Origin: Fistulifera solaris
Taxonomy: Eukaryota; Bacillariophyta; Bacillariophyceae; Naviculales; Stauroneidaceae
DNA length: 64,000 nt
Direction: 5' to 3'
NCBI GenBank assembly: GCA_030295235.1
Contig: AP026180.1
Location: 124,001 to 188,000 of the forward strand
Shown: piece after piece, positions 3,070-26,997 of the stretch
Layout: every line of letters starts with the position of its first letter
Position numbering within the stretch: the stretch's first letter is position 1
The notes under the pieces: generated by a model
What the model was told of the DNA's origin: nothing
Databases searched by the model: none
What the model saw: the letters and a program-made list of their open reading frames with translations, nothing else
Position numbers and translations under genes: made by a program

Positions 3070-3311
3070 TGAATGATGTCATGGAAGTAGACTATAGAGA
3101 GTATAATCCTTGAAAGAGAGTGCAGCTTGAATCAAGGACGTAGAAATAGACTTGAATTGCCTTAGTAGCAATTGGCAATCTGCTAGAGCTATCCTATCAA
3201 CAGTTCAGGCGACACCATAGATAAGTGAGCTAGATCAATGTGGGAGGAATAGCAACGAACTGGTCTATAAATTTAGCACGAGTTTATGCTACGCAGTTAG
3301 TAATAATTTGT

Positions 3312-6274: not shown

Positions 6275-7274
6275 ATGAATGGCGTTGAAGATAAGATGGA
6301 GGTAGAGACGACTTCGACCAAAATGGCGTGACGACCCGGCCGAATCGTTTAGCGACTGGAAAATAGAAATCGTTGTGGAAGAGGGTGATAGCAAGTACAG
6401 CCAAATTTATCACGTTCACAAGACCTTTCTGGCACACGGTCCCAGGCGTCGGCGAATACTTCACGAAGCTCTTGCGAAGCGAAGAGGTTTTCAAAGAGAA
6501 TCATTCTGGCATCAGTCAGATCACACTCGATCCCCTCTCCGCTAAAGCGTTTCCGATTCTCTTAGACTACGTTTACGGCTTCAATCATAGTATCACGACA
6601 GAAACGGCCACCGCATTGGATTATCTGGGAGACTATTTCGGAAACAGTGAACTACAAACCTTTTCTATCCAATTCGGATATAAAGATATGTCGTTAGACA
6701 ACGTGCATGTATACTATGCTCATGCAGAGGAGCTATGCAATGAGGTAATCATGGATGTGATCTACATGTTTCTCAAAAAGCACATTAACAATGTTCTTCC
6801 GACCCATCCTATTGTGGAATGCTCTAATCCTCACCTATGGACCATTGTTTTGGGCGTTAGCACAATCAGACGCTTCGAGCGCATTTCAATCTTTCTTTAC
6901 GACTCATATCCGTTGGCAAGGGTCATTGAGAAGGTCTGCAAGCGTCATAAAGACACTTTGGATATTGCCACGTTTGCGGCGCTCACGGATCTGCTGATTT
7001 CCGTCCCTCCCAGCATTGGCGCTGAGTTTTCTCGAGCTGATTACCCAGTTTGGTGATTCCGAGGAAGCCGAAACTTTATTAGGGCTTTTCAAAGTTCGCT
7101 GTATGAGTTCGATAACGAGAGGCTGGGAAGCTTTGCTCCATTTGGATGATGAACAGCTCGGAATACTGAAACAAAAAAGCCCCGAAGTTTCTTCTCGACC
7201 TAATGCTGAAGTCTTTAAAGGAGGCATCCTTGGATTTGCAGCAGGCCATGAGAAGGGCTGAGGGGGATTATTGA
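6275..7274 (+). pseudogene. BTB/POZ array copy 2, frame broken four times
   Basis: Similarity to copy 1 runs from WRDDPAESFSDWKIEI to the C-terminus but in changing frames. The breaks lie near 6320 (run AAAA), 6441-6455 (CCCAGG...CGG), 7001-7015 (CCC/TT) and 7180 (CCCC). Each needs one base removed, and removing one at each gives a continuous frame of 332 codons to TGA 7272-7274. All four being extra bases in short runs can mean either a slipped pseudogene or assembly error; see findings. The BTB core (VHKTFLAHGP, FPILLDYVYGFNHSI) and the helical tail are otherwise well conserved, and I see no nonsense substitution. The start is the in-frame ATG 6275; 6296 is an alternative. Confidence 0.7.
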
Positions 7275-7665
7275 AGTGAAAGTTTGACTTGATTGGAAGT
7301 AAAATTAGGTTGATTTAACCATTCGGCCACGTTAAATAATAGTGACTCGAATACGGGACTGGAATTATTAGTCCCGTTCATCGTAAACTAACTCTAAATC
7401 CTACAGTATACTTAAACCTCGTAGTGGTACCATTATACTGTTTAGAACAGTGTCTTAATCTTGTGTTTGTCCGTTGAGATAACGCTTCCTCAATGTCACA
7501 TGTCGTCGTTACTACGTACCAGTACTGTACAGGTCCAACGCCTGCCCGCCCTCGCGCACCTTAAACAATTTTTTGCGTTTGGTTTGACAAACAGTTGACA
7601 CAACAACATAATCTGCCATCCGTCATCTATTGCTGTTTAAGGCAAGAACTGCAACGAAGTTGACG
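7275..7665. other. Intergenic between BTB copies 2 and 3
   Basis: This 391-bp stretch shows no gene. It contains repeated tries of GTAC-rich sequence around 7515-7530. Confidence 0.5.
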
Positions 7666-8649
7666 ATGGTAGATAGTTCTGTGGATCAATTGAAGGCGTG
7701 TAACAGACTCAAGTGGCGTGAATCGTTTAGCGACTGGAAGATCGAAATTGTTTCGGACGATGGTGATAGCAAATGCAGCCAAACGTATCATGTTCACAAG
7801 ACGTTTCTGGCGCACGGGCCCAGACGAAGCGAGTACTTTTGTAAGTTGTTGAGCAGCCGAAGATCGCTTCAAAAGAAATCAAATGAATACAAGTCGCATC
7901 GAGCTCCATCCTCTCAGCGGCTAAAGCATTCCCCGTTCTCCTTGATTTCGTCTACGGTTTCGATCACAGCATCACAACAGAAACGGCACCTGCCATACGC
8001 TATTTGGGAGAATGTTTTGAAATCAGAGCGACTCGAAAGTTCTTTTCCGGGTTCTTCAAGAAGGATATATCATTAGCAAATTTGCATGTCTACTACTCTC
8101 ATGCACAATAACTTGGCGACAAGCCACTCATGAAGACTGTTTCTGTCTATCTGGCGACTCGTTTTCGAAGTCTCCTCCCCGAACATCCTATCGTGGTACA
8201 GTCCACGCCTCAGCTATGGCTTCAAGTTTTCGATCTAAGAAAAAACAGATTCTCGAAACCGTTTTTTGCCATCGAAAACTTTCTCAAAGATCATCGCAAC
8301 AATGGGTATGAATCAGAAGGAAAAGTTAGATGTTCCGTCCTTTCTCGAACTCGTTGATAAGCTCGTATTCATCGAACCATCGGCGGCGCTGATGTTCTTT
8401 GAGATTATCGACTTTGCTTCGACAATCACGACCGATAATCTCTTGAGATACCGCCTCAAAGTTTTTAAAGAGCGATGCACGGAAGCTTTGTCGAAAAACT
8501 GGCATCTTATGTTGGGTTTGGATGATATTCAGCTAGAAAAGATGAAACAGAAAGGACCGGATTTCCTGATGAAGGTCATGATGGGGTCGTTAAAGAAAGC
8601 AGCAGAAGACTACCAGCGGGGTCGCAAGAGAGCACGCGAGGGACACTAA
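7666..8649 (+). pseudogene. BTB/POZ array copy 3, three frameshifts and one stop
   Basis: The copy begins MVDSSVDQLKACNRLKWRES and keeps the BTB core (HVHKTFLAHGPRRSEYF). Frameshifts fall at 7857 (CC), 7919 (GG) and 8262-8267 (T6), each reparable by removing one base. In addition there is an in-frame TAA at 8109-8111, after YYSHAQ, where the other copies have a charged residue and Leu follows. That stop is a substitution, not a run-length change, so this copy is the best candidate for a real pseudogene. The tail recovers KIIATMGMNQKEKLDVPSF and LGLDDIQLEKMKQKGPDF and ends at 8649. Confidence 0.75.
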
Positions 8650-9355
8650 ATTGGTATTCATTCAGTGCAATGACAAAATCTATATTCAAATCACAGGAGG
8701 CTGCGCACAGTTCATATTTGCAGCCAAATGGAGAACAGTCTGTAGCTTGGAGCGAGGGGAAAGGCTACTGTAGAGACACATTCTATCTACTGTCGTGGAT
8801 CTAGGAAAGATCAGTAACGATTCAATTTCAAAATTGAAAAATAAAACAATTGAATTGTATTTCAATGAAGTACTGCATCTAGAGCTACTACTGTACGTAG
8901 ACTTGCTTTAGTTCTATCAACCATATCACCAAATCTGAACCAATCCGAGTTTTACTATGTGCCGGATCGTTCTTTATCCGTCTTACCAGAAGTGGCTGCT
9001 TTGTTCTTCTTTGTATTTAGTGGCCCAAAATCGCTCTCAACTCAGCGTGGCAATAGCTTGGGCTCGATCCATGGAAAGAAGTTAATTAAGTCGAACTCTA
9101 CGCGTGACTCAGCAGGCGGGACCGCTCATCAGCGTCATCACATCGCATACCAGTATCTTGCAATCATCAATCATAAAAGCTCGTTTTTGTTTCCATTGCT
9201 ATTATGCTTATGCTGCATCAATAGTAGGTTATGCCTTCGCTGCACCAATTATCCTGTTGAGAACTGGCCCGTCAGTTTCTGCTATTCCTTGCCGTTCGCG
9301 AAGCTCTAAAGTTTACAAGTAATACATACAACAAACGTGTGATCCAACTCGATCA
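8650..9355. other. Intergenic between BTB copies 3 and 4
   Basis: This 706-bp stretch has an AT-rich 5' half. Two overlapping short open frames near 8959-9322 have no family signature, and I do not call them. Confidence 0.5.
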
Positions 9356-10315
9356 ATGATGCAAGACGATCAGCCGAAATGGCGCGACGATCCAGTCGAT
9401 TTGTTTAGCGATTGGAAGATTGAGATCATATCCTTTAACGATGAAGGCGTAGAGACAACCGACACATATCACGTGCACAAGAACTTTCTCGCGCGGTTCA
9501 GCGACGAAGCAAATACTTCTTTCGACTCTTTCGGAAGGAAAGCTTCACTGAGAATCAAGCGAGTACGAGTCGAATTGATTTGGATCCCCTAGCAGCTCAA
9601 GCATTTCCTGTTCTTTTGGACTTTGTTTACGGCTCTAATCTTAGTATCACTTCCCAGACGGCTACGGGCGTTGCATCATTTAGGAGAATACTTCGAAATC
9701 AGGCCATTGCAAGACACTTCTTTTGAGTTCTGTCAACATGACATGTCGTTGGATAATTTGCATGCCTATTATGCTTCTGCGAAACAGCTGCACGATGACA
9801 ACGTCATGAATCTGATCGTTGACTATCTGAGGTTGAAGATATCTAAACTCTCCCCGACCAACCCTATCGTGTTGCAATCAAGTCCGGATTTGTGGTTGCG
9901 TGTTCTGGGCTTAGATGATCGTCGTGAAAAGATTGAATTCAAAGATACTATTCTATTGAGCCAGATCATCGCCAAGATGTGCATGAGTCAAAGCGAAGCC
10001 CGATGGACGCAAAAACATTTTATACTTTCACGAATCTTCTGACTTCCATTCATTCAAACGCTGGCTCTGGATTTGTGTGAATTGGATGACCGCTACTCCC
10101 TCGGTGATGACGATGATGAGTCTGACCTTTCCGCGCTCCAACAACTTTGCGTTGACGCCCTTTCCGCCAATTGGACAGATAGGAACAAGTGGAACGATGA
10201 GCAGTTTGACAAAATGAAATACAGAAAACCAAAATTTATCGTAAAAGTTCTCAGGCAGACGGTGAGTGATGCGACCTCAAAATTACCTAGAAAGTCGCAC
10301 TATGCAGATTATTGA
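9356..10315 (+). pseudogene. BTB/POZ array copy 4, four frameshifts
   Basis: It starts MMQDDQPKWRDDPVDLFSDW. Frame changes occur near 9498 (one base missing), 9666 (GGG, one extra), 9999 (CCC, one missing) and 10056 (AAA, one extra); the net change is zero, giving 320 codons. Pieces recovered in order are RRSKYFFRLFRKESF, FPVLLDFVYGSNLSI, ALHHLGEYFEIRPLQ, LSQIIAKMCMSQSE and ALDLCELDDRYSL. The tail has a short acidic insert (GDDDDESD). A further scrap resembling SQVVAKVC lies near 10498-10520. As with copy 2, the lesions are all run-length changes, so true status is uncertain. Confidence 0.7.
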
Positions 10316-11025
10316 AAGGAAGGTGTTAGGAAGTGTTTCCTGGAGCCTTTTCATGCAATCTTTGAGGCGATCATCACGAGAGGTAAATAGACTTTTGACT
10401 GGACTTGCCGACAATGAAGAGCTTCGGATTCGCCGCATAAACAATACAGTTTTCGGGCGAAATCAATGCAGATGACATGGTCATAATCGATTCGTGAGCC
10501 AAGTCGTTGCTAAGGTGTGTTCTAAGCTGTACTATTCCAAAATGAAAAGAAAGTGGAACGAACACAACCGTAAAGTAGTGGTGAGAGAAGTCTTCCCGAC
10601 TTTCAAGGCAAGCTTTTCAGAAGCCAAAATTAAAGTTAACTACTTGATCGTTCACGCTTCGACAGATACAACCAAAGCGATATGAAAGAATTACTGCTGT
10701 ATTGGCTGGACCCATTACCACCTACACCTTAGAGCTAAAGGGGAACTTCCTTGAGATCAAGAAGTTGATAACCAACTTTTAGCCACTTGAAAACCGCAAC
10801 GGTACACAATTCCTGTATGTAGCTGTACAGTTCATTCGACAGTTATTTGGAATAGATCCCGTTTGCCGGTGTGGTCGATCTGCAACGACACACAAAAAGC
10901 GTGCGCTGCTCGTTGCTTTCATTATTTGTCGTTCTCTCCGCGTATATTTTCGATTTTGAAATCATCGTCCGGTCATCTCTTCACTAGAAATATTTTTACG
11001 AACAGCAATTTTTGAATAATTGAAA
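10316..11025. other. Intergenic between BTB copies 4 and 5, with BTB scraps
   Basis: 10340-10520 holds short fragments similar to BTB C-termini (LFMQSLRRSSREVNRL, SQVVAKVC) in shifted frames, suggesting a decayed partial copy. The rest is non-coding as far as I can tell. The leader just before copy 5 (GCAATTT, then TTGAAAATGG) is shared with copy 8. Confidence 0.5.
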
Positions 11026-12145
11026 ATGGAGCAAGAAGGTCGACCAATGTGGCGCGACGATCCGAGCGAATCGTTTAGCGATTGGACGATCGAGATTGTA
11101 TCACTTCAAGAAAGCAAATACAGCGGTACATATCACGTTCACAGAATCTTTCTGGCGCACGGACCAAAACGAAGCGACTACTTTTCTACATTGATACGAA
11201 GCGAAGATGGCTTTCATGAAAATCAAACGAATACAAGTCGCATTGAGCTCGATAGTCTCGCAGCCGAAGCATTTCCGATTCTTCTTGACTATGTCTACGG
11301 CTTCGGCTTAGAATTAACAACAAAGACAGCCACCGCCCTGCATCATTTGGGTGAATACTTTGGAATCGAGCCGTTGCGACTTCGGTCTCTCGAGTTTTGT
11401 CGAAAGAACATGTCTTTGCATAATTTACATTGCTTCTACTGCCATGCAGAGCGACTGAATGATGCGCCTGTTCTGAAACTCGTCACCGATTACTTGAGGG
11501 ACAAAGTTCGTCCCAGTCACCAAATTGTTGAACGGTCCAAGCCTCAGCTATGGATAGAAGCGCTGGGGCCGGATGAAAACGGTTTGGAACTCTATTTGAC
11601 GACACCGATGAACTTAGCAAAGTCATTTCCAAAGTGTGTTCGAGTCAAAGCGAAGAGACTCTCGATGCAGAAACATTTTGCAAGCTCACGGAAGATCAAC
11701 TTTTTCAGTTGATTTTAGCGTTGCCCTGGATTTATGCGAGTTGGCTGATCGCTATTACGAAAATGCAGACGAGGGTGTTATTTCTCGCCTCCTCAATTTT
11801 CAGGACACGTGCGTTCGCGCATTGGCTAATAACTGGAAACTATTGAGAGACCTGAACGGCGAGCAAGCTACACAACTGTCGGAGCGAAGTGCGGGTACCC
11901 TGGTTGAGCTCTTACTGCACACCGTAGAGAATGCGTGGTGCGAAGTGAGTAAATTGTCGAGTGAGCTTGCTGACTGTAAGAGCATGATACAAGCCACGGA
12001 ATCGCGCGAGTTGTCCGTCGCTAAGGCTGGCGACAAGAGACTTCGACCCCTTTATTACAGCAGTAGCGACGATAACAGTACCGACGAAAGCAATTCCAGC
12101 TCGGACGACAGTTCCGTCGAATCTAGTGAGCGTTTTCATGATTGA
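11026..12145 (+). CDS. BTB/POZ array copy 5, with acidic Ser-rich tail
   Basis: The start is ATG 11026 (MEQEGRPMWRDDPSESFSDW). The frame breaks twice: at TTT 11595-11597 and at TTTTT 11701-11705. Adding one T to each run gives one frame of 374 codons through LYFDDTDELSKVISKVCSSQ and then DFSVALDLCELADRYYENAD. The BTB core (YHVHRIFLAHGPKRSDYFST, FPILLDYVYGFGLEL) and the helical tail match copy 1. It is about 40 residues longer than copy 1, with a C-terminal Asp/Ser-rich segment (SSSDDNSTDESNSSSDDSS) that looks like a phosphorylatable casein-kinase-2-type tail. I treat it as an intact gene with two run-length errors. Confidence 0.75.
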
Positions 12146-12641
12146 GCGATGCGGCAGGGGAACGGCAAGTCCGCGAATTATAAAGCGTAAAGCTCCTGTA
12201 AAAATGAGTTTGTCGACGATAAATTCTTCAAAAACCACAGTATCGGCATTGCGAATCTTGAAAGTAGATCTCTTGTAGCATCATGCACAGTAAATTCACC
12301 GCCCCACTACTAATTGTTCGCAGGTACCGTCAACTGCTATCGAGTGATTATTTGCCAAACGAGCACGATCAACCATGGAGGAGAGAGTTGGACACACCAT
12401 TCCATTTGCGGTGACGCAAAATTATCATTAAATGAAACGTGTCCAAAAAGACGCGTCAAAGTGATAAACTACGAATGGGCCACCTTAACGACAAAAAAAC
12501 GAAACTTCGAAATGTATCCTTGGTGATGGCATTTTGAACATAGGGTAACTAGAAGTCTTGAAAGTTAATAACATCAGCCAAATAATTATGATGTGGTGTC
12601 CGCGTCTTCACGTGCACGCAGAATGTTGGCTAAAAGCGGTC
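12146..12641. other. Intergenic before the minisatellite
   Basis: Nothing recognisable is seen in this 496-bp stretch. Confidence 0.5.
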
Positions 12642-12910
12642 TTTTCACGTCTCCAGAAAATGTGGGGGTGTGCTTTTTGACGTCTCCAGAAAATGTGGGA
12701 GTGTGCTTTTTCACGTGTCCAGAAAATGTGGGGGTGTGCTTTTTCACCTGTCCAGAAAATGTGGGAGTGTGCTTTTTCACGTGTCCAGAAAATGTGGGGG
12801 TGTGCTTTTTCACCTGTCCAGAAAATGTGGGCGTGTGCTTTTTCACGTTTCCAGAAAATGTGGGGGTGTGCTTTTTCACCTTTCCAGAAAATGTGGGCGT
12901 GTATGCTTTT
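12642..12910. repeat. 33-bp minisatellite, eight units
   Basis: The core CCAGAAAATGTGGG starts at 12653, 12686, 12719, 12752, 12785, 12818, 12851 and 12884, exactly every 33 bp. Units alternate in two types (GTGGGGG with CACCTGT versus GTGGGAG or GTGGGCG with CACGTG/CACGTT), giving a 66-bp higher-order period, as expected from unequal exchange of dimers. Because 33 is a multiple of 3, several frames are open throughout. The array ends about 110 bp before the ATG of BTB copy 6. Confidence 0.95.
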
Positions 12911-13019
12911 CCCTGTTTTCATCATTTTCGTTTTTCGCATTCACCTTGCTCTAATTTTTTTATTCCGTAGGTACCAGTATATCATTCTTCTTCGTCGGCA
13001 ATCTTCTCTAGAGCCTACA

Positions 13020-14068
13020 ATGGATCAAGACGATCAACCAAAATGGAGGGACGATCCCAGCGATTCGTTTAGCGACTGGAAAATAGAGATCATCTCACAA
13101 GACGAGAATGAGAAGGGCGAAAAATCCCATCTCTATCATGTTCACAAAATGTTTCTCGCGCACGGATCAAGGCGAAGCGAATACTTCTTTAAACTGTTTC
13201 GAAGTGAAACAGACTTCAAAGAAAACCAGTCGAATATGAGTCAGATCACGCTCGATCCTCTTGCCGCCAAAGCGTTTCCTTGTCTTCTCGATTACATCTA
13301 CGGTGCTAATTTGTGTATCACGACGGAGACGGCTACCGCATTGCACCATTTAGCAGAATATTTTGAGATCAAACCGCTGCAACGCAAGGCGCTGGAATTT
13401 TGGAAGCGGACATCTCAGTGGAGAATGTGCATATCAGTTACGTTCACGCAAAACAGCTGTGCAATGAGCCAGTCATGAGTCTCGTCACGGACTTTTTGAA
13501 GCGAAATATATCGGCTGTACTTCCGACAACTCCCATTGTGGAACAGTCAAGCCCAGATCTATGGTTGAGTGTGCTGGATCTCAATGGCGATCAGGATAAG
13601 ATAGAAATTAAAAACACTGTTCAATTGAGTCAGGTCATTGCCAGAATGTGTATCCGACAACCCAAAGAGACTCTGGATGCGACAACATTTCATACACTTG
13701 CCGACGGATTGACGCGCATTCACTCCAGCGTAGCTTGGGAATTGTCGGAACTGGCGGACGCATATCGTCTTCACGACGAAAAGGTTGAAAATGAGTCGGG
13801 CCTCCCATTGATCCAGGAACGGTGCATTGACTCTCTAGCCACTAAATGGCAAACTTTAGACGGTGCGGATAAAGCTCAGCTTGAAAAAATGAGGCAGAGA
13901 AGCCCAGCATTCCTTGTTGAGCTCTTGGTGCAAACGGTGCGAGAAGCATCTAAGGAAATAGATGCAATGGCGGTTAAACTTGCTGAATGGAAAAGAAAAT
14001 TGAAGGAGCATAATAAGGTCAACAGGAGATATGCGGTGCGCTATCGAAGCGATTCGTCTAGCGATTAG
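13020..14068 (+). CDS. BTB/POZ array copy 6
   Basis: The start is ATG 13020 (MDQDDQPKWRDDPSDSFSDW). There is one frame break at TTTT 13398-13401; one more T gives LEFLEADISVENVHISYVHA and a frame of 350 codons. The domains match copy 1: BTB core YHVHKMFLAHGSRRSEYFFK, FPCLLDYIYGANLCI, TALHHLAEYFEI; then LSQVIARMCIRQ, ELSELADAYRL and LEKMRQRSPAFLVELLVQ. The last residues, RYRSDSSSD, closely resemble the N-terminal DDPSDSFSDW of the family, so the stop may lie in the head of decayed copy 7 (see findings). The frame upstream of ATG 13020 is open through the minisatellite. Confidence 0.78.
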
Positions 14069-14678
14069 ACGAGACACAATATCACGTGAACATTGCGAAT
14101 ACGGCGGGACAAAAAATATTCTGTAGACATTTCTCGCGCATCGCTTTGAGGAAAAACGCTCACATACGATCCGTATTGAGCTAGAAGTGTTCTCAGCTGG
14201 GACCTTTTTTGTTCTGTTGGACTTTGTCTACGGACACGATACCAGGCGTTTGGCACTAGGGGAGTACTTTGAAACCAAACAATAGAAGCTCGAGTCGTTC
14301 ATCCTGTCAGCAACCAACGTGCACGTTTACGATGTTTCTGCAACACAGCACAGTAATGAGACATTCATGAATCTGACTCTCAACTTTCTGCGAAACAATT
14401 TATATAATGCAGTATCAAAGCATCGCATCGTAAATTCGCCCGATCCTCAACGATGGGTAGATGTTGTACGTTTGTATGACAGTGTTAGGAGTATTCAAAT
14501 GAAGGACTCTCGTCAGCTAAGCAAACTCATTACTAAGCTATGCTTGAATCAAAGTGGAAAGACTTTGGATGTGGAAACTCTTCTAAACTCATCAACCGTT
14601 AATTTCAATCGATTCAGTGTCGCAAATATGTTACTGTACCTGGTAAGGAAGCCGCTGGCGTCCGTCCTTAGTTTTTGA
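14030..14678 (+). pseudogene. BTB/POZ array copy 7, decayed
   Basis: Traces in several frames: an AAGCGATTCGTCTAGCGATT stretch matching the family's ESFSDW codons near 14046, a YHVH-like scrap near 14080, FVLLDFVYGHD near 14210, then an open stretch from 14319 with HVYDVSATQHSNETFMNLTL, SKHRIVNSPDPQRWVDVV and LSKLITKLCLNQSGKTLDVE up to 14678. The BTB core is mostly lost. This is a real remnant: large internal deletions, not only run-length changes. Confidence 0.7.
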
Positions 14679-14976
14679 ACCAAATATTTGTGATGATTCA
14701 TTCGTACAAAGACGGACGCCAGACGTGTAACAATAATGTCTCGTCGATCTCGTCACGCGGTCATTTCGCAGAAGCGTATCTTTCCTTGGGGAGAGGTCCC
14801 GCATGTCGGTGAGGTCGATCGTCCATCGACGCTTACAAACGTCCGCAGCTCATTGCTGACCAGGTCATCCCGATTCTCTTTCATTTCTGAGATACTTCTT
14901 GGATCTCCTTGCTTCTTTCGCACGGCAAACTATCAACTAGAATTCTTCTTGCAGAAAGCAATTTAGTTTATTGAAA

Positions 14977-15888
14977 ATGGCCCACGAACATCAACTGAAT
15001 TGGCGCGACGCAACGAGCAAATCGTCAAGCGACTGGAAGATAAAGATCACTACAACTACCAATGACCGCACTGCCACGTATCATGTGCACAAAGCAGTCC
15101 TGGCGCACGGACCACGACGCAGCGAATTCTTTGCCGAGATCTTTCAGAACGATTATATGGCCAACGCAATGAATACAAAATCGTCCTTTCAACTCGATTC
15201 TCACGCAGCTCGAGCGTTTCCTGCATTGTTGGATTATATCTACGGTGAGGACTTGAAAATCGATACGAATAATGCTACCGCTTTGCATTATTTGAGCGAG
15301 TTGCTTGGAATGAATCAACTAAAAATCGATTCTCTACAATTTTGTCAAACGAACATGTCATTGGAGAATTTGCATATCTACTACGTTCTTGCAAAACTGC
15401 TTAACGACGCGCAAGTCAAAAATCTCGTCACCGTCTTTTTGAAGATGAACATGCACCACGTACGTCCCGATCATCCCATCGTGGAAGAGTCCGATCCGCA
15501 GCTGTGGATTGATGCTTTGGCGATTCAAGGTCATGCAGAGACGCGAATCGAGGATACCCGCCAGTTGAGCAAGGTCATTGCCAAAATATGCCTTATTTCC
15601 ATGACGTTGGATACGGAGACTTTTGAGCGTCTCGTCGACCCGCTGGCTTGCATCGATTCCAGCGTGGCATTGGATCTGTGTCAATTGGCAGATCATCTTT
15701 ATCCCAAGGATCTGGACTACATTTTGTCGGGTCACCTATTGCTCATGAAACGATGCGTTGAAGCATTGTCAAAGGATCCTAATTTTTTGCGCGAGTTGGA
15801 TCAGCACGAGATGCACATCTTGATGCAGAGAAGCCCGCAGTTTCTTGTGAACCTTTCGTTGGAGACAGTCGCAGGGTATCGCGATTGA
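14977..15888 (+). CDS. BTB/POZ array copy 8 (intact, divergent)
   Basis: One uninterrupted frame of 304 codons from ATG 14977 (MAHEHQLNWRDATSKSSSDW). The BTB core is YHVHKAVLAHGPRRSEFFAE, FPALLDYIYGEDLKI and ATALHYLSELLGM. The tail has MSLENLHIYYVLAKLLNDAQ, LSKVIAKICLI and ALDLCQLADHLY, and ends MQRSPQFLVNLSLETVAGYR. It is shorter than copy 1 and lacks the acidic or basic extensions of copies 5 and 6. As the last member of the array with no lesion, it and copy 1 frame the damaged members. Confidence 0.88.
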   Translation: MAHEHQLNWRDATSKSSSDWKIKITTTTNDRTATYHVHKAVLAHGPRRSEFFAEIFQNDYMANAMNTKSSFQLDSHAARAFPALLDYIYGEDLKIDTNNATALHYLSELLGMNQLKIDSLQFCQTNMSLENLHIYYVLAKLLNDAQVKNLVTVFLKMNMHHVRPDHPIVEESDPQLWIDALAIQGHAETRIEDTRQLSKVIAKICLISMTLDTETFERLVDPLACIDSSVALDLCQLADHLYPKDLDYILSGHLLLMKRCVEALSKDPNFLRELDQHEMHILMQRSPQFLVNLSLETVAGYRD

Positions 15889-16004
15889 ATAGTGTAAAAG
15901 TGAATGCATTTGCCGTTCGAAAAGATGCGTCCTTTCGTTTTGCATTTCTTCGAGAACGCGCATGGACGTGTGTGTAGTCAATCAAGGATTCGTTGCACGA
16001 ACGG

Positions 16005-16330
16005 GTTCTCTGAGGTAGTACATACGCCGTAGTACGTATTTCAAGCTATGAACTCCTTGATAGCCCATTCTTTTGTAAAAGCAGCGACAACGAAGTGCCC
16101 TTCGTCATGATCATTGCAGGTGCTTTATCGTATATTCAACGGCTTGATGGTCGATTTAAGAGAAAACCAGGTCAAAGGAGCCGGTGCATTGTTATCATTT
16201 GTCGTATCGTGAAGTATTTGAACATGACAGACGGTAGGAGGACGAGAACAAGGCGTTTGCAGGAACTTCTGCAAGCTCCAGTCGCGACGATGAATCCAGT
16301 TGGCTGGCTGCTGGAGAGGAGAAGCAGCTG
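16005..16330. repeat. About 320-bp segment duplicated at 23450-23770
   Basis: The segment from about 16005 (ending of the intergenic region after BTB copy 8) to about 16330 matches 23450-23770, including the shared words AGCAGCGACAACGAAG and GACAGACGGTAGGAGGACGA. It contains the last codons and 3' flank of the p31comet-like gene (minus strand). Confidence 0.8.
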
Positions 16331-16354
16331 ACGCGCCGACTACACCGATGCTGA

Positions 16355-16391
16355 GGGCCCAAACTATCGGACGAAAAATCTGTCCATGGAC
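16355..16391 (+). repeat. Harbinger left terminal inverted repeat
   Basis: Starts GGGCCCAAACTATCG and runs into the first GTCCATGGAC subterminal palindrome near 16382. It is preceded by the target duplicate TGA. Confidence 0.9.
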
Positions 16392-16616
16392 GCGTCCATG
16401 GGCTCATTTTCGTCTGTTCTCATCCGTTTTTTGACTTTTTGAATGTCCGCATGGACGCTTCGAGCGTCCATGGACGTCCATGGGTCCACCGTCCATGGAA
16501 CGGATTTTCAGAACAAAATCGCACCTTTTCTCATTATTTTTCGTGCGGTACTAAGCAAACATTTCATCGTCATCTCTCTTCAATCGCACAAATCCATCGT
16601 TCTTTCATCAATTACA

Positions 16617-18085
16617 ATGTCTACCATCAATTCTATTGCAAGTAGTGATAAAGACAGCAGCGACTGCGAGAGCATGAACACCGCTATGCAGATCGCGATT
16701 GCGCAAGGCGACATTATGATGTCGACGACGCAAGGCAACGTGTCACGCAACACCGATAATGCGCCACCTCCGGATGTTGTTGAAGTCGCTCCCCCGCCCC
16801 CACCACCACCCCTTTCTGCAAGAAGAGGAACTGCTTTTGACCCAGAGACGTTTTCAAAGCTTACAATGGCTGATGTGGTCCTTGGTGATCAGCCGATCTA
16901 CAGGTATGACATGAGCAAGAAGCACGCGATGTCCCGCTTGATCAGTATTGGTCCCTATCCTATTCTTGATATCAAAGTTGATTTTCTACGACCATGGGCG
17001 GGAAAATACGACATAAAGGGGAAAAAAACCCAAGGGTGATTTGGTGCAAGCCATCATTGACAACAAAGAGAATAAGGGTTATAAACCCAAGCCTGCTCCA
17101 AGTGCGGCACCGACGCTCACTACTGCAGGTTTTTTTCAACAAAATTCGCATGGTAAATGCGATGGTCGATCCTTCGGTCGATAATTTGCTTGACTGGAAG
17201 AAGAGTAAGACGGCTGCTGAGATGACCGAGAAACAGCCGATCGGAGAAAAGTGTCTGCAACAGGTCAAATCTTTGTACAACGACAAAGAAAAGTGCAATG
17301 AACCGGTCAAAGAGTTTTCTTGGAAATCGGCAAAACACGATGCTGGTGAATTTTTTGCAAGTCTCGACTTCACACTGTCAAAGCATCTCACTACGGTTCA
17401 TGATGTGCACGCAAAGATGAACGCACTTACGATGGAATACAATCAAGCTTATCAAAAATGGAAAGGCAAGACTAAGCGCTCGGGGCAACATGACGACACA
17501 GCGAAAGTACCTTTTGAAGACATGTATTTCAACACGCCGTGGCTTGTTTATTGTCATTCTGTTGCAGAGAAGCATCCGATCCTTGCTCAGACTACGCGTC
17601 GCGAGTTTCCACCAGGTGTAGGAGTGTGCTCGACCGATCCCCGTACCGCGGTAAAGCCACCACCGCAGAAGAAGGCAAAGAAAGCAGCGCCAACTGAAGC
17701 GATTGCTATTGATGAAGAGCTTGTTGAGTCATCGAAAGATGTAGCAAAACAAGTGGCTGCATTATTGGAGGAAACCAAGAAGAAGAACTTGCGTGAGCAA
17801 AAAGATAACTTGGCAAAGCAGGTAAAGGAGCGTGAGGCGGAAGTTCGCGATATTCTCGAAAAGAAAGGCAAAACGGGACGCTCGGCTTACAAATCCTACA
17901 AGGAGAAAGCAGTCAAGAAGCTTGCAAGCAAAGCTGCAGCTGAAACTTCAGATGACGGCATCGCTCTCACCCAGAACTCGGTGAAGACGGATACAACCGA
18001 GTTCAGTGTCATCAAGGATTTGTTTTCGAAAGAGAACGAGAAACAGCAGGTCGAACGTGAGCTCGAGGAACTGATCAAGAAATAG
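16617..18085 (+). CDS. Harbinger accessory ORF
   Basis: The start is ATG 16617 (MSTINSIASSDKDSS). The frame shifts at A7 (17022-17028) and T7 (17130-17136); one base fewer in each run gives 489 codons with KGKKPKGDLVQAIIDNKEN in the bridge. The protein has a proline run (APPPPPPPPL) near residue 60, a middle region with DNLLDWKKSKTAAEM and KEFSWKSAKHDAGEFF, and a long charged C-terminal coiled coil (EETKKKNLREQKDNLAKQ). PIF/Harbinger elements usually encode a Myb/SANT-type partner that binds the element ends and imports the transposase. I cannot see a clear Myb triad of tryptophans here, so the role is inferred from position only. It converges with the transposase gene. Confidence 0.7.
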
Positions 18086-18140
18086 ATAGTATTCTAATTT
18101 CTCTTACATATAAGAGTTTCATTACACCACTCTGTGAAGG

Positions 18141-19523
18141 CTAATGGTTGTTGTTTGCGTTGCGAATGAGGTTGTGTAAGGGCCGAACAAGTTGGGGGTC
18201 TTCACTGATGAGTTGCACAAGCAGACCGCGCCGAACGGATGATGAGGCAAGCGGATCTGGACCTTCTACTTCGTCTCCGACAAATTGAGGCTGGTTCGCA
18301 TGAATTAAGCCACCTTCGTGCTCAACAAGCCGATCTTCGTAATCAATTTCCACATTATCGTTGTCAATGACGAAATTGTGTAGCATGCAGCTCACCATAA
18401 AGATTCGTTGGACCTTTTTGTGGCCGTATGCCATCTTACCTCGAAAGATACGATATTTCGTCGTTAGGCGACCAAAAGTCATCTCGATTCGAATCCTCAG
18501 CTGAGAAAGAAAGAAGTTGTAATTTTTCTGAGCTTCCGTCAAGCCATTGCCGCTAAAAGGGATAAGAGAATAGTTTGTGAGTGGGTATGCGGAGTCGGCC
18601 ACTATATAGAAGTCCTTATCAAGCTCATCTCTTGCAAGTCCACGGAGCCAATCAGTGAGGGCCGGAGACATATCCAAAGCAACACTGTCGCTTGTCTTGC
18701 CTGGGGCAGCCACATTTGCGTAGGTAAATCGCAAGTTCGGATCGCACATGCACTGAGTGTTGATTCCATAGCAACCGTAATGCTCCGACCAATAGTCTCG
18801 GCATACTGTCGACTTCGGCTTGTCAACTGCGATCATATACCCATCTAAGCATCCAACAACCCCGTAGAACACTCCTTTTGCATCGCTATGTTCATTAAAG
18901 CCCACCGCGGCAGCCGTGAGCTCATCTTTTGTTTTCGGCAGCTGCAACCACAGCTCCGGTGTATTGAGACATGCATTAAAGAACTTATCGAGGACTCGAT
19001 CAATGGAGGCTCGTCGGGGACCGAACACATCTTCCAAACTCTTCTCCTTCTCCCCTCCAAGGAACCGAAGGCTCATTGCAACCACCATTTCCGGCGAAAT
19101 GTAAAGCGATGGGTCGCCAGTCGAGTTGAGAGATTTCGTTTTGTTGAAGACGATTTTTTCTCCAAGAAGATGCACCAGATATTGAAATGACGAGTACGTC
19201 ATATGATATCGGTTCGCGAAGCCAGAATCACGACATTCGTAAAGGTGTTGATTGAATACCTTTCGGGCGATGTGAATCTTTGCGTCTCGCGTCTTTGATT
19301 CTTGTAAACGTCGTCGACGACGGATTCTCCGCACCGTCAAAGTACTGAGTTGAAACTGCAGTTGAATGATTTGCAACAATAGCAAGTCGTCCATTGTTTC
19401 ATAAGAGAATAATTCATAAAGAAACAAATGAATGATTTGTAATGGGCGACGAATGATTGATGAAATGATTTGAATAGATAAATGCCTTCGAATGAAAAAA
19501 TTGATGCCATTTTTCCAAGGCAT
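18141..19523 (-). CDS. PIF/Harbinger DDE transposase (HARBI1-like)
   Basis: An uninterrupted frame of 460 codons; the functional start may be the later ATG at 19394 (MDDLLLLQIIQLQ), since the first 43 residues overlap the subterminal region. The DDE catalytic triad is visible: Asp in VVGCLDGYMIAV, Asp in YIVADSAYPLTNY, and Glu in LRIRIEMTFGRLTTKYRIF. Family markers VSCMLHNFVIDND and the N-terminal helix-turn-helix-like RYHMTYSSFQYLVHLL are present. The enzyme cuts and pastes the element, making 3-bp duplications. No stops or frameshifts, so it is probably competent. It is encoded opposite to the accessory ORF, with a 55-bp gap between the two stops. Confidence 0.93.
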   Translation of the reverse strand: MPWKNGINFFIRRHLSIQIISSIIRRPLQIIHLFLYELFSYETMDDLLLLQIIQLQFQLSTLTVRRIRRRRRLQESKTRDAKIHIARKVFNQHLYECRDSGFANRYHMTYSSFQYLVHLLGEKIVFNKTKSLNSTGDPSLYISPEMVVAMSLRFLGGEKEKSLEDVFGPRRASIDRVLDKFFNACLNTPELWLQLPKTKDELTAAAVGFNEHSDAKGVFYGVVGCLDGYMIAVDKPKSTVCRDYWSEHYGCYGINTQCMCDPNLRFTYANVAAPGKTSDSVALDMSPALTDWLRGLARDELDKDFYIVADSAYPLTNYSLIPFSGNGLTEAQKNYNFFLSQLRIRIEMTFGRLTTKYRIFRGKMAYGHKKVQRIFMVSCMLHNFVIDNDNVEIDYEDRLVEHEGGLIHANQPQFVGDEVEGPDPLASSSVRRGLLVQLISEDPQLVRPLHNLIRNANNNH

Positions 19524-19661
19524 TTGTAAGGGAGAAAAGAAGATTTTTACTTAAGAAATTTCGATGTCGTAGAGATATTCCACCCAAGGCCATGGACGTC
19601 AAAATTTTTTGATAACATGCCGTCCGTCCATTCGTCCATGCCCGATGGCCGTGGACGTGTG

Positions 19662-19696
19662 TCCATGGACAAAAAAAATTTCGATAGTTTGGGCCC
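19662..19696 (-). repeat. Harbinger right terminal inverted repeat
   Basis: Reverse complement of the left end: GTCCATGGAC, an A/T-rich spacer, then CGATAGTTTGGGCCC, followed by TGA at 19697. Confidence 0.9.
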
Positions 19697-20288
19697 TGAG
19701 AAACAATCGTTGTCGAGGTGATGAATTTGTAGTAGCTGCACCATCGTGTTGCATTATCGTTCGTATGACTTTGCGAGCCAACGGCGCCTCGTCCTCTAGT
19801 ACTCGAGCATGCACATCGAGAAGACACGAAGCATCGATCCAATAGAGAGTCCGCGGACGAGCAAACGAAGTCCCATAGCTCAGTAATATACATTTGACAT
19901 GTGAGGAATGCAATTCGTTTCGCAGTGCTTCATCAAAATGTTGTATTTGTTGTCGCAATCGCATCCTCTTTGGTAGTACTCGATGTGGTTGTGTCACTTC
20001 TGTCGGAATCGACAAAAGCTCTTCGATCGACCACGGTGAGAAACCGCGCGTACATAGGAGATGTCGAAAGATAGCTTGTGCGGATGTACGAAGCACCGCG
20101 GATGATGCGAGCGGGCGAGGCAGCATCAGATCGAGAGTGATGATCGACGGACCCGTCTTGTGAGAAGGACGCGTTCGTCGACGGCATTTCGTTGCGGTAG
20201 ATCGTTTGCGTCGTTCGATTGCTATATTATCAGTGGTAATATTATCAGCTTTCATAGTAAATTTGTTTCTCTCATTGTTTGAAGCCAT

Positions 20289-20621
20289 CAGACCATTGTT
20301 TGAGAGAGTTGTTGTGACGGGTTTTTAATTGTGCCCCATAAAATCTGTTGAAGTGGTGTTTTCACATCTCCATAAAATCTGAGTGTGTTGTTGTTACGTG
20401 CTTCGTCGTGGGTCGTGGGTCGTGGCTCTTAGGTACCAGGTATCTTTGTTTAAAACGTCCTCTCACCTTTGCTCTGAACGCGCGATAAGGTTAGGCACTA
20501 CTTTACGTAGTACAGTACCTGGTATTTTTCCCCCGCACGACACAAGCACGACACGACGCGCAAAATCAACAAGCCTGTTTTTCTTCGATCCTTTAGTCAA
20601 ACAACTTTTCAAAGTGAAATC
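20289..20621. other. Intergenic, p31comet-like 5' flank and family promoter
   Basis: This 333-bp stretch holds a weak single copy of the 12.7-kb minisatellite motif (TTTTCACATCTCCATAAAAT at 20359) and two 9-bp palindromes TACCAGGTA (20434) and TACCTGGTA (20516). Confidence 0.6.
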
Positions 20622-21382
20622 ATGTCGAACAACACCACGAATAACAGCATTTTCTTGCTTGGTCTAGTTCCTCCGTGCCTACGCAATTACTGGCCCGAGC
20701 AAGTGGCTTATTGGCGTAAAGGGGGCCGTTCTCCGACGTACATGCTGCTAAAGGATCCAGCCGACCTCGATGATCTCAGCAAATACGATTTTAATCTTGC
20801 CATTTGGCGAGACAACGGAACTCTGACTTATGTGTCGCCAAATAGTGCCCGCCAGGACAGCCCCTGTCTTGGTGAAAGATATCTTCTTTACACTTTGAAG
20901 ATCACGGACTTAACGTGTTGTACATTGTCGGAAGGACGAAAGAGGTAATGAAGGAAACAGCCGCATACTTCATGTCCAAGAAGAGGTACGGAACCAAAAA
21001 CTGCACTAGCGGGTCAAATGAATTGTCGAACAAAAGCATGGATACCAGCGTAGTTTTGCTTGGGATGATTCCTCCGTACCTTCTCAAGCCTGAACAAGTG
21101 CCTCATTGGTCTTTAGGGGGTCGTTCTCCGACGTACATGCTGCTTAATAATACATTTGATCTCGATGAACTCAATAGTTACGATGACAATCTAGCCATTT
21201 GGTGCAACAACGGAACGCTTACTTATGTGTCTCCAAAACGTGCGCGCAGGGATTTTCCGCGTCTCGGTGAAATAATCCTTTCTCTACACTTCGAAGACCA
21301 AGGTCTTCATTTGTATATTGTCGGAGAGACGAACGAGGCAATGAAGGAAACAGCCGATTTCTTCAAGACCAAGTCAGGGTAA
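20622..21382 (+). CDS. Unknown tandem family, two-domain member (copies 1-2)
   Basis: Not a family I recognise. Domain 1 begins NSIFLLGLVPPCLRNYWPEQ and has GGRSPTYMLLKDPADLDDL and NLAIWRDNGTLTYVSPNSA. The frame breaks at about 20883-20888 (TTCTTT); one more T joins it to HFEDHGLNVLYIVGRTKE, which is in frame with domain 2 (SVVLLGMIPPYLLKPEQVPHW ... LHLYIVGETNEAMKETADFF), 253 aa in total. The repeated unit is about 120 residues: hydrophobic start, PEQVPHW, SPTYMLL, LAIWxxNGTLTY, LYIVGET, ADFF. No signal peptide or membrane span is evident. It lies head-to-tail with three more members. Confidence 0.6.
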
Positions 21383-21452
21383 GGTAAACTACAACTGCTA
21401 TAGCGGATCAAATATTCGTTTTGTCTAACCATGCAAGTCGAAAAGTGGAATC

Positions 21453-21901
21453 ATGTTGAGCGAAAGCACGGATAACAGCCTCCTTTTGCTTGGAATGATT
21501 CCTCCGTACCTTCGCACGCCCGATCAAGTGCCCCATTGGCAAAAGGAGGCAGTTCTCCAACGTACATGCTGATGAAAAGTACATTTGATCTCTTTGAACT
21601 TTTCAAATACAAGGAAAATCTGGCAATTTGGTGCGACAACGGAACGCTAACCTACGTGTTACCAAACCAAAGTTACCGAACTTACTCTTTCTGGGAGTAT
21701 TATGGGCGTTCAAATCGAGACAGCCAAAACTCTCCGCTTCTCGATATAAGCTGTCATTTTCGATACTTTGCAGACCGGGGTCTTCATATGTTCATAGTCG
21801 GAGAAACGGAAGAAGGAATAAAAGAAACCGCCGATTTCTTTGAATACAAAAGGTACGATAACTACAACAGTAATAGTAGAACAAAAATTCGTGTTGTCTA
21901 A
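21453..21901 (+). CDS. Unknown tandem family, single-domain member (copy 3)
   Basis: MLSESTDNSLLLLGMIPPYL, then PDQVPHWQ. The frame shifts at AAAA 21541-21544; one more A gives QKGGSSPTYMLMKSTF and 149 residues ending RTKIRVV. The spacer to copy 4 is 24 bp. It contains the same LAIWCDNGTLTY and FIVGETEEGIKETADFF blocks, with a longer insert between them (YRTYSFWEYYGRSNRDS). Confidence 0.6.
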
Positions 21902-21925
21902 CCATAAAAATCTTAAAGTGCGACC

Positions 21926-23391
21926 ATGTTCAGCGAAAGCACGGATACCAGCCTCTTTTTGCTTGGAATGATTCCTCCTTACCTTCGCAGGCCCGAGCAA
22001 GTTCCTCATTGGCGTAAAGGGGGTCATTCTCCCACGTACATGCTGCTGAAAGATCCAGCCGATCTCGATGAGCTCAATAAATACAACTACAATCTGGCTA
22101 TTTGGCGCGACAACGGAACGCTTACATATCTGTCTCCGAATACTGCCCACCAGGACAGTCCGCGCCTTGGTGAACGATTCCTTTATCTGAAAGCCGAAGA
22201 CCATGGTCTACACTTGTACATTGTTGGCGAGACGGACGAGGCAATGGCGGGAACGGCTGCTTTCTTCTTGAATTTGGAGGGAAAGAAACTCGAGAGCTCA
22301 TCGTCACTCGAAGCGTGTACTTTCAATTTTACTTTTGATTTTCAGGCTGGACCTGGTTGCCTGAGGCATATTTTTGAGGCAAACAATAAAAAGCAACTAA
22401 CTGCTCTGGCAGATAGCCGTTGCCACATGCGTTTGCATTTTCATGCATGTCACTTTGATGACAAAGGTAGAGCGCTTCTTGATGTGATTCAGGATAAAAG
22501 GTCAACATTTGACGTATTGCTGTCGAAGGGATGTACAGGCTTGACCAGTCACAATTTGAAACGCCTTGTACACGTCAACACGATGAAGCGCTTGACTCTA
22601 CCCTGCTTGAGCAAAAACATTGCGCTTCTTCCTTTTTCTGCGCAAGTTGAATATCTCGACTACAGCATATCTTCGTCGGTGCTGGAAAAAGTGATAGGGT
22701 CGGTGGACATTGCGACAACCAGAATCTCGCTAACCATACACCATGACAGCGGAACCTTTCCAACGGCATGTATGATTTCGTTGTTTCGGCGTTTAGCTGA
22801 TTTGAAGCATCTGCTGGAGTTGAGAATCAGACTCAATTTTGTGCTCATTCGTACACATCGTACGATACCCGATTGCGTTGTACAAGAATTGCTACTCGCC
22901 ACACTCGCAAACGAGAAGCTGGAGCGTCTTGATTTAGGCGATAGCACGAGGCATTTCGATTGGGCGCCGCACATCAATGCACTTTTGAAGGTGTCCAGTC
23001 TCACAAAAATCTTTGTTCCTTTATAATTGATGTATACAATGATCATGAACTATTCGCCTCCAATTGTTCCTCGCTTCGGCAGCTGCTTACGGCGAACAGA
23101 AGAATCAGAGTGACGAATGGAAATGGATTACTTTGCTGTTGCGGTGTCATGTTTAATTCTGACATCAAAGAGCTATATTCATTCAATGGCTTCTATTGTG
23201 GTTCGGCAGATCTCACAATGGATCCACCATCGGACCGGCTTTCTTTGGTGACAACAGCCTTGTCAAAAAGTGCTTCCTTTAATTTCCAGCGATCTGCTGT
23301 TTTGTTAGCGAATCATGTCGATGTGCTGTATGAACTTTTGCCGTCGGCTATTGCTTACCACGTACCGATACACGAGCATGTCTTTCCGTGA
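21926..23391 (+). CDS. Unknown tandem family, long member with LRR-like C-terminus (copy 4)
   Basis: MFSESTDTSLFLLGMIPPYL, the family N-domain (about 1-115), then about 370 residues with irregular leucine-rich spacing: GLTSHNLKRLVHVNTMKRL, VEYLDYSISSSVLEKV, FRRLADLKHLLELRIRL, LLATLANEKLERLDLGDS, and LKGVQSHKNLCSFIIDVYN. The frame breaks at GG 22990; one added base gives 488 residues ending YHVPIHEHVFP. The LRR-like region probably forms a solenoid for protein binding; that is an inference from spacing only. About 1.4 kb of it is copied with high identity in copy 5. Confidence 0.65.
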
Positions 23392-23570
23392 TAAACAAGC
23401 GGAAACGAAGAGGAAAAGTTTTGCGTTTCATTCTGCATGGACGGGCTCACTGAGTTTTAATACATAGTACATATTGCATTCTGAGCTTCTTGACAGCCCA
23501 TATTCTCTGTAGATCTGCTGTAGATAGCAGCGACAACGAAGAGCCTTTCATCCCAACCCATGCAGTTGCT

Positions 23571-23770
23571 TTATTTTATTTTCAACGGTTTGATAGTCGA
23601 TTTAAGAGAAAACCAGGTCAACTGATCCGGTGGATTGTAATCATTTGTCGTATCGTGAAGTATTTGAACATGACAGACGGTAGGAGGACGAGGGCAAGGC
23701 GTTTGCAGAAACTTCTGATAGCTCCAGTCGCGGCGATGAATCCAGTTGGCTGACTGCTGGAGAGGAGATG
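23571..23770 (-). pseudogene. Duplicated p31comet-like C-terminal fragment
   Basis: On the minus strand ASPLQQSANWIHRRDW, LQTPCPRPPTVCHVQILHD and LTWFSLKSTIKP match the tail at 16125-16330, with substitutions such as N to Y and A to D. The N-terminal 200 residues are absent. The fragment lies between family copies 4 and 5 and is joined at about 23770 to a family fragment on the other strand. Confidence 0.8.
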
Positions 23771-23784
23771 CGCGTTCATATCGT

Positions 23785-23970
23785 GAATGCAAGAACTTTC
23801 CGCTTTTAGAAAAAGGATGTCATTGTAAATACTTCGAGGAGCAGGGTCTTCAGTTGTACATTGTTGGAGAGACGGTTAAGGCAATGAAGGAAACAGCCGA
23901 TTTTTTCAAATCCAAGACAAGGTACGGTTGCTACAACTGCAATAGTGGATCAAATGTTCGTTGTGTCTAA
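23785..23970 (+). pseudogene. Unknown tandem family, 3' fragment of an N-domain
   Basis: This stretch encodes only the end of the domain: CHCKYFEEQGLQLYIVGET, MKETADFFKSKTRYGCYNCN and SGSNVRCV, then stop. The 5' part was replaced by the p31comet-like fragment. Confidence 0.7.
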
Positions 23971-23994
23971 CCATGAAAGAAATAAAGTGCAATC

Positions 23995-25527
23995 ATGTTG
24001 AGCGAAAGCACGGACTCAAGTGTCGTTTTGCTTGGGATGATTCCTCCATACCTTCGCAGGCCCGAGCAAGTACCTCATTGGCGTAGAGGGGGCGTTCTCC
24101 GACGTACATGCTGCTAACCGATCCAGCCAATCTCGATGAGCTCAGAAGACAACTACAATCTGGCTATTTGGCGCGATAACGGAACTCTTACCTATGTGTC
24201 TTCGAATAGTGCCCGCCAGGACAGTCCGCGCCTTGGTGAACGATTCCTCTATCTAGAAGCCGAAGACCTGGGTCTTCAGTTGTACATTGTCGGCGGGACG
24301 GACAAGACAATTGCGGAAACGGCTGCATTCTTTTTGAACTTGGAGGGAAAGAAACTCGAGAGCTCATCGTCACTCAAAACCGACACATTCAGTTATACTT
24401 TTGATTTTCAAGCTGGAACTGGATGCATGAGGAATATTTTTGAGGCAAACAGTGAAAAGCAGCTAACTGCTCTGGCAGATAGCCGTTGCCACATGCGCTT
24501 TCATTTTGAAGCATGTCACTTTGAGGACAAAGGTACCTGGTAATGCGCTTCTTGATGTGATTCAAAATAAAAGGTCAACATTTGACCTATTGCTGTCGGA
24601 GGGATGTACAGGCTTGACCAGTCACAATTTGAAACGCCTTGTACACGTCAACACGATGAAGCGCTTGACTCTACCCTGCTTGAACCAAAAATTGCGCTTC
24701 TCCCTTTTTCTGCGCAAGTTGAATATCTCGACTACAGTATTTCTTCGTCGGTGCTGGAGAAACTGATAGATTCGGTGGACATTGCGGCAACCGGAATCTC
24801 GCTAACCATACACCATGACAGCGGAACCTTTCCAACGGCATGTATGATTTCGTTGTTTCGGCGTTTAGCTGATTTGAAGCATCTGCTGGAGTTGAGAATC
24901 AGACTCAATTTTGTGCTCATTCGTACACATCGTACGATACCCGATTGCGTTGTACAAGAATTGTTACTCGCCACTCTCGCAAACGATAAGCTGGAAATTC
25001 TTGATCTGGGCGATAGCACGGGACATATTAATTGGGCGCCGCACATCAGTACACTTTTCAAAGCTGTTCAGTCTCACAAAAATCTTCGTTCCTTTACAAT
25101 CGATGTTTACAATGAGCCTAAGGTTTTCGCCTCCAATTATTCCTCGCTTCGGCAGCTGCTTACGGTGAACAGAAGAATCAAAGTGAAGAACGAAAGTGGA
25201 TTACTTTGCAGTTGCGGTATCGTGAGTGATTCTGACATCAAAGAGCTATACTCGTTCAACGATTTCTATTGTGGTTCTGCAGATCTGGCGGTGGATCCTC
25301 CATCGGACCGGCTTTCATTGGTGACAACAGCCTTGTCACAGAGTGCTTCTTATGACTTCCAGCGATCTGCTCTTTTGTTGACAGATCATATCGATGTGTT
25401 GTATGAACTTTTGCCGTCGGCTATTGCTTACCAGGCACCAGGTACCGGTACACGAGCTTGTCATTCCGGGATGACAAGCGGGGACGAAGAAGAAAAGGTT
25501 TCATTTCATGAAGGAACCCCATCCTGA
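23995..25527 (+). pseudogene. Unknown tandem family, long member with several lesions (copy 5)
   Basis: This is a near-duplicate of copy 4. Lesions relative to it: one base missing after GGGGG (24090), two bases missing in the LNKYNYN region (24140), a net 7-bp insertion GTACCTGGTA at 24532-24542, one base missing in A5 (24690), and an 8-bp insertion near 25433 that also creates CCAGGTACC. The N-domain and LRR-like region are otherwise conserved (LADSRCHMRFHFEACHF, MISLFRRLADLKHLLELR). The mix of 2-, 7- and 8-base changes points to real decay. Confidence 0.65.
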
Positions 25528-26997
25528 GAATCAGAAGTAGCCTAGAATTTCTACGATCTTTTTCCAACAAGGTCTCCCAAGTTATTTTCCACACAGAGCG
25601 ATGAAACACCGATTTACAAAAATTGAAACAAAAAGGACAAAGTTATTAAAATCACCATTCTAAAGTATAAACTATCATTTTCAACACATTTCTAGGACGG
25701 AACCATACATAAACTTGCTGGAAACCCCAGGCTAACCACGCATCGTCGAGATCGTCCACAGTTCATGATGTGCGAGCCCTCTTTTAGAAGGCACGATATC
25801 TTGCACACGTTCACTGTTCGTTCCTTCCCTCCCCTGTCCGTCAAAATTGCCGCAGACGAGAGTAACTGGTCTAAAGTGAATTGCTTGTCGCTCTCGGAAA
25901 AGAATGGCTGCATAATGGTTTACTGCACCCTCATCCAAGCAGCCACGTTGCAACCATGTCTTTCGTCGACAATAATAGTAGACAAGTTGCTGCTCGCTGT
26001 TAGAGAGGTAGGCTGTGTCTGACATGGCGACAGTCGATAGATTCCACACGTCCAGCCACGCACATCATTGTACAAAGACCCCACCCCTTCCGCCATTCCC
26101 GCTATAATAGCTGCTGTAAGTACATCGATTCAGTGTCGCATCCGTTGGCGTTGAGAGATTTATGTTTGTGTCATCGCAAAGCACCACTCTTTTTCCATGT
26201 ATCTTTTGTTCCATCTGTCGCCTCGCAACTATACATTTTCTGAATGGAAAAACGTCCTTTACATCTGCTCTTGCGTCAATGTACACCGAGAATAGGATTG
26301 ATCTTTGATGACATCGGGTGCGCGAAGTAAATGAAGTAATGCGTTCTTGTTATAAACTTCGACGCGTGCATAGGGGGCATAGGGATCGAGTTGAATCACC
26401 CCGATAGTTGCGACATGGTTGCGACATCAATTCACCCTCTATAAGTAACCGAAATTGAACCGTGAATTACACAACATATCCGGATATCAACCTGTTCCAT
26501 CGCTTATTGTAAGACGTGTTTGTAATAATCCTGTTGCAGGCGATTGATTCGCCTGCAGCGGCGCATTCGCCTCTTCACTCATTTGTTGACATACTATCTG
26601 CCAATCGTCTTCTCCGCATTTTATTACCCTTGTACATGACGACTCCGTATTATTTCTTGTACAGTATGTATTCACTCTGCGAGAGTTGCGACGACGCGGC
26701 GCGGACGAGAAAATCTTGGAGACGACGTACAGTACCGAATTGTACTCCGTAATGGTGTAGAGGAAGTTACGTACATAAGGCTTTTACATTCAACGGCTGT
26801 ATTATTATCCGTTGAGATAGTTTTGGAGAAGCGTTCGCCGCCCGCGCAGCATAATAAAATTAAAATTCTCGTCCATTCTGTAAAAACGCCTTATCATTCG
26901 TTCAATCTTTCACATCCTTTTGTTGCATCATCCTGCCAGGTACCGACATTGTTATTGCATCCCCTTTTTTAACAAACGAAGATACAATCACCTTATC
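25528..26997. other. Intergenic, 1.47 kb, no recognisable gene
   Basis: Overlapping open frames of 85-105 codons on opposite strands at 25732-26049 look like mutual shadows and match nothing I know. The rest has short AT-rich tracts. A TGCCAGGTACCG word lies 64 bp before the next ATG. Confidence 0.5.

Follow-up and report, generated by a model that had tools for sequence, protein, structure and literature searches.

A transposon interrupts one homoeolog of a probable p31comet gene in the allodiploid diatom Fistulifera solaris

The window analyzed here is a 64,000-nucleotide stretch of the Fistulifera solaris genome (assembly GCA_030295235.1, contig AP026180.1, positions 124,001 to 188,000 of the forward strand). 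It contains a minus-strand gene resembling p31comet (MAD2L1BP), into which a DNA transposon has inserted. The features of this locus, in positions of the window, are:

16355-19696: DNA transposon, 3,342 bp, of the PHIS (PIF/Harbinger-ISL2EU-Spy) superfamily with a NuwaII-like target, from its terminal inverted repeats, target site duplication, DDE_Tnp_4 domain and target comparison
16355-16369, plus strand: left terminal inverted repeat, 15 bp
19682-19696, minus strand: right terminal inverted repeat, 15 bp
16352-16354: target site duplication TGA, left copy, in the context C|TGA
19697-19699: target site duplication TGA, right copy, in the context TGA|G
18141-19523, minus strand: open reading frame of the transposase (PF13359), 460 codons, with an uncertain start codon
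16443-17039 and 16994-18085 (16443-18085 overall), plus strand: companion coding region, two overlapping ORFs in different frames
19701-20288, minus strand: p31comet-like gene, 5' part, codons 1-196
16125-16352, minus strand: p31comet-like gene, 3' part, codons 198-272 and stop
19599-20288, minus strand: reading frame as it now stands, from the ATG of the gene: 196 native codons, 33 from the element, then a stop
23434-23771, minus strand: partial copy of the 3' end of the gene, 81% identical to 15994-16325

The first and last 15 bases of the element are perfect inverted repeats (GGGCCCAAACTATCG), and both these and the flanking 3-bp TGA duplication were found as described in a first-pass annotation of this DNA, which had reported a complete, sharp-ended element at 16355-19696. 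The transposase matches DDE_Tnp_4 (PF13359) over the entire profile (1-158 of 158, 99.2 bits in a Pfam search), so that the element has a DDE transposase related to that of PIF/Harbinger, as in the PHIS superfamily; we take its DDE triad motifs to start at residues 224, 308 and 345. The two ORFs of the companion region, which lie in different frames, contain no Pfam family above cut-off and no Myb/SANT domain in the Pfam search. A relative of the element on contig C9 has several indels here compared with the window copy, two of which fall in homopolymer runs, so that the split frames may reflect either decay or sequencing error. The transposase had been called untouched, which holds for its own open frame and not for the companion region, split over two frames.

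Target site duplications are given as TWA for PIF/Harbinger, and the target as C|TNA|G for NuwaII, in the account of these groups in PMC4482050. The TWA duplication of PIF/Harbinger proper is not found at the window site, which has TGA instead. The sequence C|TGA|G found in the window agrees with the NuwaII target, while the C9 site, G TAA G, fits only its TNA and right-hand G. The target thus appears to suit the NuwaII group of PHIS better than Harbinger proper, although two sites in all do not settle the matter. The earlier label ‘Harbinger’ has to be narrowed, the target being C|TNA|G-like, with TGA rather than TWA.

Matches to the element number at least 11, on 7 contigs. Among the matches listed, the window copy is the only one of full length and the best relative is that on C9, which is 89-91% identical and is divided into two segments with about 5.6 kb between them. 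The age of the insertion is not datable from the element copies, because the nearest of them is this divergent and divided. The C9 relative (C9:1384660-1393631; L005 and L006) was probably split by a later nested insertion; the reading frame of its transposase is spread over two phases, and TAA is present at both ends. Element pieces 254-390 and 2722-3225, about 60 bp apart, recur on C38 (L008/L012), C3 (L009/L013) and C11 (L010/L014), and these two-piece copies look like one deletion derivative that spread.

When the flanks are joined with a single TGA, the minus strand reads through 272 codons to a stop at 16125, 819 nt in all, and in this frame codon 197 is the one split by the insertion. 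Both halves keep open frames and the insertion is the sole lesion. A search of the genome assembly (51.7 Mb, 61 contigs) with the 5' part of the gene returned two places, its own locus and C29:689472-689994 (84%). The C29 locus (L003:4746-5558, minus strand) holds a single open frame of 270 codons, the protein of which is 73% identical to the joined protein; the two genes are 81.7% identical over 268 codons. The C29 copy is neighbored by matches to the BTB genes of the window on one side and to a tyrosyl-DNA phosphodiesterase gene on the other, and collinear matching stretches extend to window position 36817. At the insertion point C29 has one unduplicated C|TGA|G. The exact restoration of the frame on removal of the element, as first proposed, is borne out by the joined flanks and by this counterpart; it is not a chance effect, because the syntenic place on C29 encodes the same protein unbroken.

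F. solaris is described as an allopolyploid whose chromosomes form 42 homoeologous pairs (PMC5935921), and elsewhere as allodiploid, with a 23-nt guide-RNA target common to two homoeologous apt genes (PMC13276009). This target has two exact matches in the assembly, one each on C38 and C39, while its reversed control has none, which places the window in F. solaris or a very near relation. The first-pass annotation had recommended a search for an uninterrupted copy, and the 270-codon syntenic gene on C29 is such a copy. It disposes of the suggestion that p31comet might be lost from this diatom: the gene is not lost from the species but broken in one homoeolog, because C29 carries it whole. The alternative suggestion, that the insertion affects one allele only, was set aside in favor of homoeologs, as the second copy has diverged to the degree of an allodiploid's homoeolog (PMC5935921). 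Nor does the existence of a second full gene make the window locus an old pseudogene, since that gene is the homoeolog.

Several further features of the surrounding DNA were noted. The partial copy at 23434-23771 runs in frame for 68 codons to the stop and is flanked by two repeats (21702-23431 and 23768-25509) sharing 86% identity; it is 88.7% identical to the window copy and 80.6% to the C29 copy, and therefore arose after the homoeologs parted. A tandem ORF family at 20217-26974 fills the 6.8 kb between the p31comet-like and phosphodiesterase genes, a gap of about 0.4 kb on C29, and the member tested (ORF 21926-23026) has no Pfam family. Tandem BTB-domain ORFs, two of them tested by Pfam, form a cluster at 4700-15888, also present on C29, in which some frames are apparently broken. 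Long adjacent plus-strand ORFs at 36891-42381 appear to belong, in tandem, to a single protein family.

The identity of the interrupted gene was examined by sequence comparison. The Pfam p31comet profile (PF06581), proposed earlier as a check, matched neither the joined protein nor its halves (E up to 1), nor the C29 copy (E up to 10), while the human p31comet control scored 576.5 bits; a search of the genome with this profile gave no match, and no control matched in it either. No relative of the C29 copy was found in the PDB with phmmer. By contrast, direct alignment of the C29 copy with human p31comet gave z-scores of 6.2 (global) and 6.9 (local), with none of 500 shuffles as high, compared with -1.2 to 0.2 against MAD2 and REV7. 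Among 99 ORFs of at least 150 codons from the window and the fetched loci, the C29 copy ranks first against human p31comet, the next ORF reaching a z-score of 4.7. The joined window copy aligns more weakly, with z-scores of 4.7 (local; 3/500 shuffles as high) and 2.3 (global; 14/500). Comparison using hhalign gave P = 0.018 against human p31comet, over columns 44-185 only. In a scripted run its score was 26.8, and 200 shuffles of the columns reached at most 26.2; the values for MAD2 and REV7 were P = 0.57 and P = 0.45. These alignments point to similarity with human p31comet along the length of the C29 copy, and less strongly of the joined window copy.

AlphaFold2 models were poor (pLDDT 35.6 for the second model). 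A Foldseek search with the second model gave 103 matches at E up to 10 and none at E ≤ 0.001. The best 50 of these 103 are mostly HORMA entries: 48 hold Rev7, Mad2 or p31comet, 46 of them by title and two as Rev1-CT entries, and the remaining two of the 50 are DOCK9. The top rows are Rev7, and p31comet chains stand at ranks 31 and 34 of the best 50 of 103, none significant. The VIA-align list contained no HORMA entry. HORMA (MAD2-like) genes above cut-off were found at two loci, on C1 and C2, and TRIP13-like genes with 43-44% identity also on C1 and C2, so that the genome encodes both partners of p31comet. The p31comet of other eukaryotes passes closed MAD2 on to TRIP13 (discussed in PMC4439613), and it has been lost recurrently among them (as outlined in PMC5579357). 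The proposed identity with p31comet is favored by the alignment of the C29 copy with human p31comet, and not with MAD2 or REV7, and not by the PF06581 profile, whose failure to match had been named beforehand as grounds for refutation; on balance, the host ORF is probably p31comet.

Over 268 aligned codons, the window and C29 copies differ at 147 nucleotides and 72 amino acids, with no stops or frameshifts. In 2,000 runs in which 147 random changes were placed, the mean was 89.7 amino-acid differences and the minimum 74; no run gave as few as 72, and only 9 of the 2,000 were free of stops. The dN/dS of the pair is 0.45 (0.165/0.364); the MAD2-like pair has 0.04, the TRIP13-like pair 0.14 and the phosphodiesterase pair 0.12. 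Together, the neutral simulation and dN/dS values indicate that selection acted on the pair through much of its history, though only loosely. Split at the insertion, dN/dS is 0.19/0.346 in the 5' part and 0.106/0.417 in the 3' part; the part cut off by the element is the better conserved. As a rough bound, if about half of the 147 differences arose along the window branch, with a stop created by 4.1% of random changes and some indels as well, then more than about a third of the divergence spent without selection should have left a lesion in the copy. Of the sites at which the copies differ, 8 agree with human p31comet in the C29 copy and 2 in the window copy, and by substitution score the C29 copy is the better at 27 sites and the window copy at 22; these counts, taken from a poor alignment, hint no more than weakly that the window copy had relaxed.

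Taken together, these results favor a reading, to which we assign a probability of roughly 0.78, in which a transposon inserted into one homoeolog of p31comet and truncated it, the C29 homoeolog remaining intact and checkpoint silencing resting on it. A transposase, either the element's own or that of a relative, would have cut and pasted the element into C|TGA|G, after 196 codons of the gene. The hit copy would then yield only a truncated protein of 196 native residues and 33 read from the element, which, without the last 76 residues, is expected not to work. If the gene encodes p31comet, the HORMA-domain adapter that would hand closed MAD2 to TRIP13, silencing of the spindle checkpoint would then depend on the C29 homoeolog.

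It is unlikely that the ORF encodes a diatom-specific protein or another HORMA-domain protein and not p31comet. The failure of the PF06581 and PDB searches would be explained in this way, as would the Rev7 entries heading the best 50 of the 103 fold-search matches and the fast evolution of the gene (dN/dS 0.45 against 0.04-0.14 in three other pairs); the z-score of 4.7 for the second of the 99 ORFs also reveals a heavy tail in the ranking. The C29 copy nevertheless stands first in that ranking at z-scores of 6.2-6.9 that none of the 500 shuffles equaled, has values of only -1.2 to 0.2 against MAD2 and REV7, and exceeds the highest of 200 shuffles in hhalign (26.8 against 26.2). Were the gene not p31comet, the transposon story would be unchanged and its meaning for the spindle checkpoint would fall away.

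An assembly artefact, or an insertion that is segregating and missing from many cells, seems improbable. The frame differences at homopolymer runs in the companion region could be sequencing errors, but the sharp ends and target site duplication, and flanks that are collinear with C29, argue for a genuine junction; among the matches listed, moreover, there is no near-identical element copy to misjoin (best relative 89-91%), and the two matches to the gene in the assembly include no near-identical empty copy. It is very improbable that the window copy still works, whether by splicing out of the element or because the 196-residue piece suffices. Its two open halves and the insertion as sole lesion are compatible with function, but the frame meets a stop after 33 codons of element sequence, and the missing part is the better conserved (0.106/0.417 against 0.19/0.346).

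We regard the insertion into one p31comet-like homoeolog as a commonplace kind of homoeolog loss in an allodiploid, brought about by a transposon, and not as a sign that a diatom has lost a checkpoint factor. A whole copy remains in the assembly, which corrects the stronger reading of gene loss. What the locus shows cleanly is the disruption, by a transposon, of one of the two parental copies of a gene that probably serves the checkpoint of this allodiploid alga, while the homoeolog keeps the target site. A more speculative extension, that a conflict between parental checkpoint sets is being settled, with one p31comet homoeolog disabled so that a single version serves both pairs of MAD2 and TRIP13 and stabilizes allodiploid mitosis, strikes us as very improbable. 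For gene editing in F. solaris, the gene would already be down to one working copy. Among the papers listed on the F. solaris genome and its transposable elements, on p31comet in diatoms and on the diatom Mad2 checkpoint, none on this insertion was found.

The locus can be compared with three known systems. The element shares with the NuwaII group of PHIS, as characterized in PMC4482050, a DDE transposase, terminal inverted repeats, a 3-bp TNA duplication and a second coding region, and at the window site its duplication sits in the C|TNA|G context of that group (PMC4482050); it differs in that its second region has no detected Myb/SANT domain and is not in one frame, and in that the C9 relative has TAA without the left-hand C. 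The p31comet-like gene resembles human p31comet/MAD2L1BP (PDB 6f0x_P, 2qyf) in length (270-272 against 274 residues) and in its collinear global alignment, and the partners MAD2 and TRIP13 are encoded in the F. solaris genome, whereas the diatom gene lies beyond the reach of the Pfam profile and one of its two homoeologs is broken. As in homoeolog loss in allopolyploids, a lesion has disabled one of two diverged parental copies and spared its counterpart; here, by contrast, the host is a unicellular diatom, and the lesion is a whole transposon whose empty site is kept in the homoeolog.
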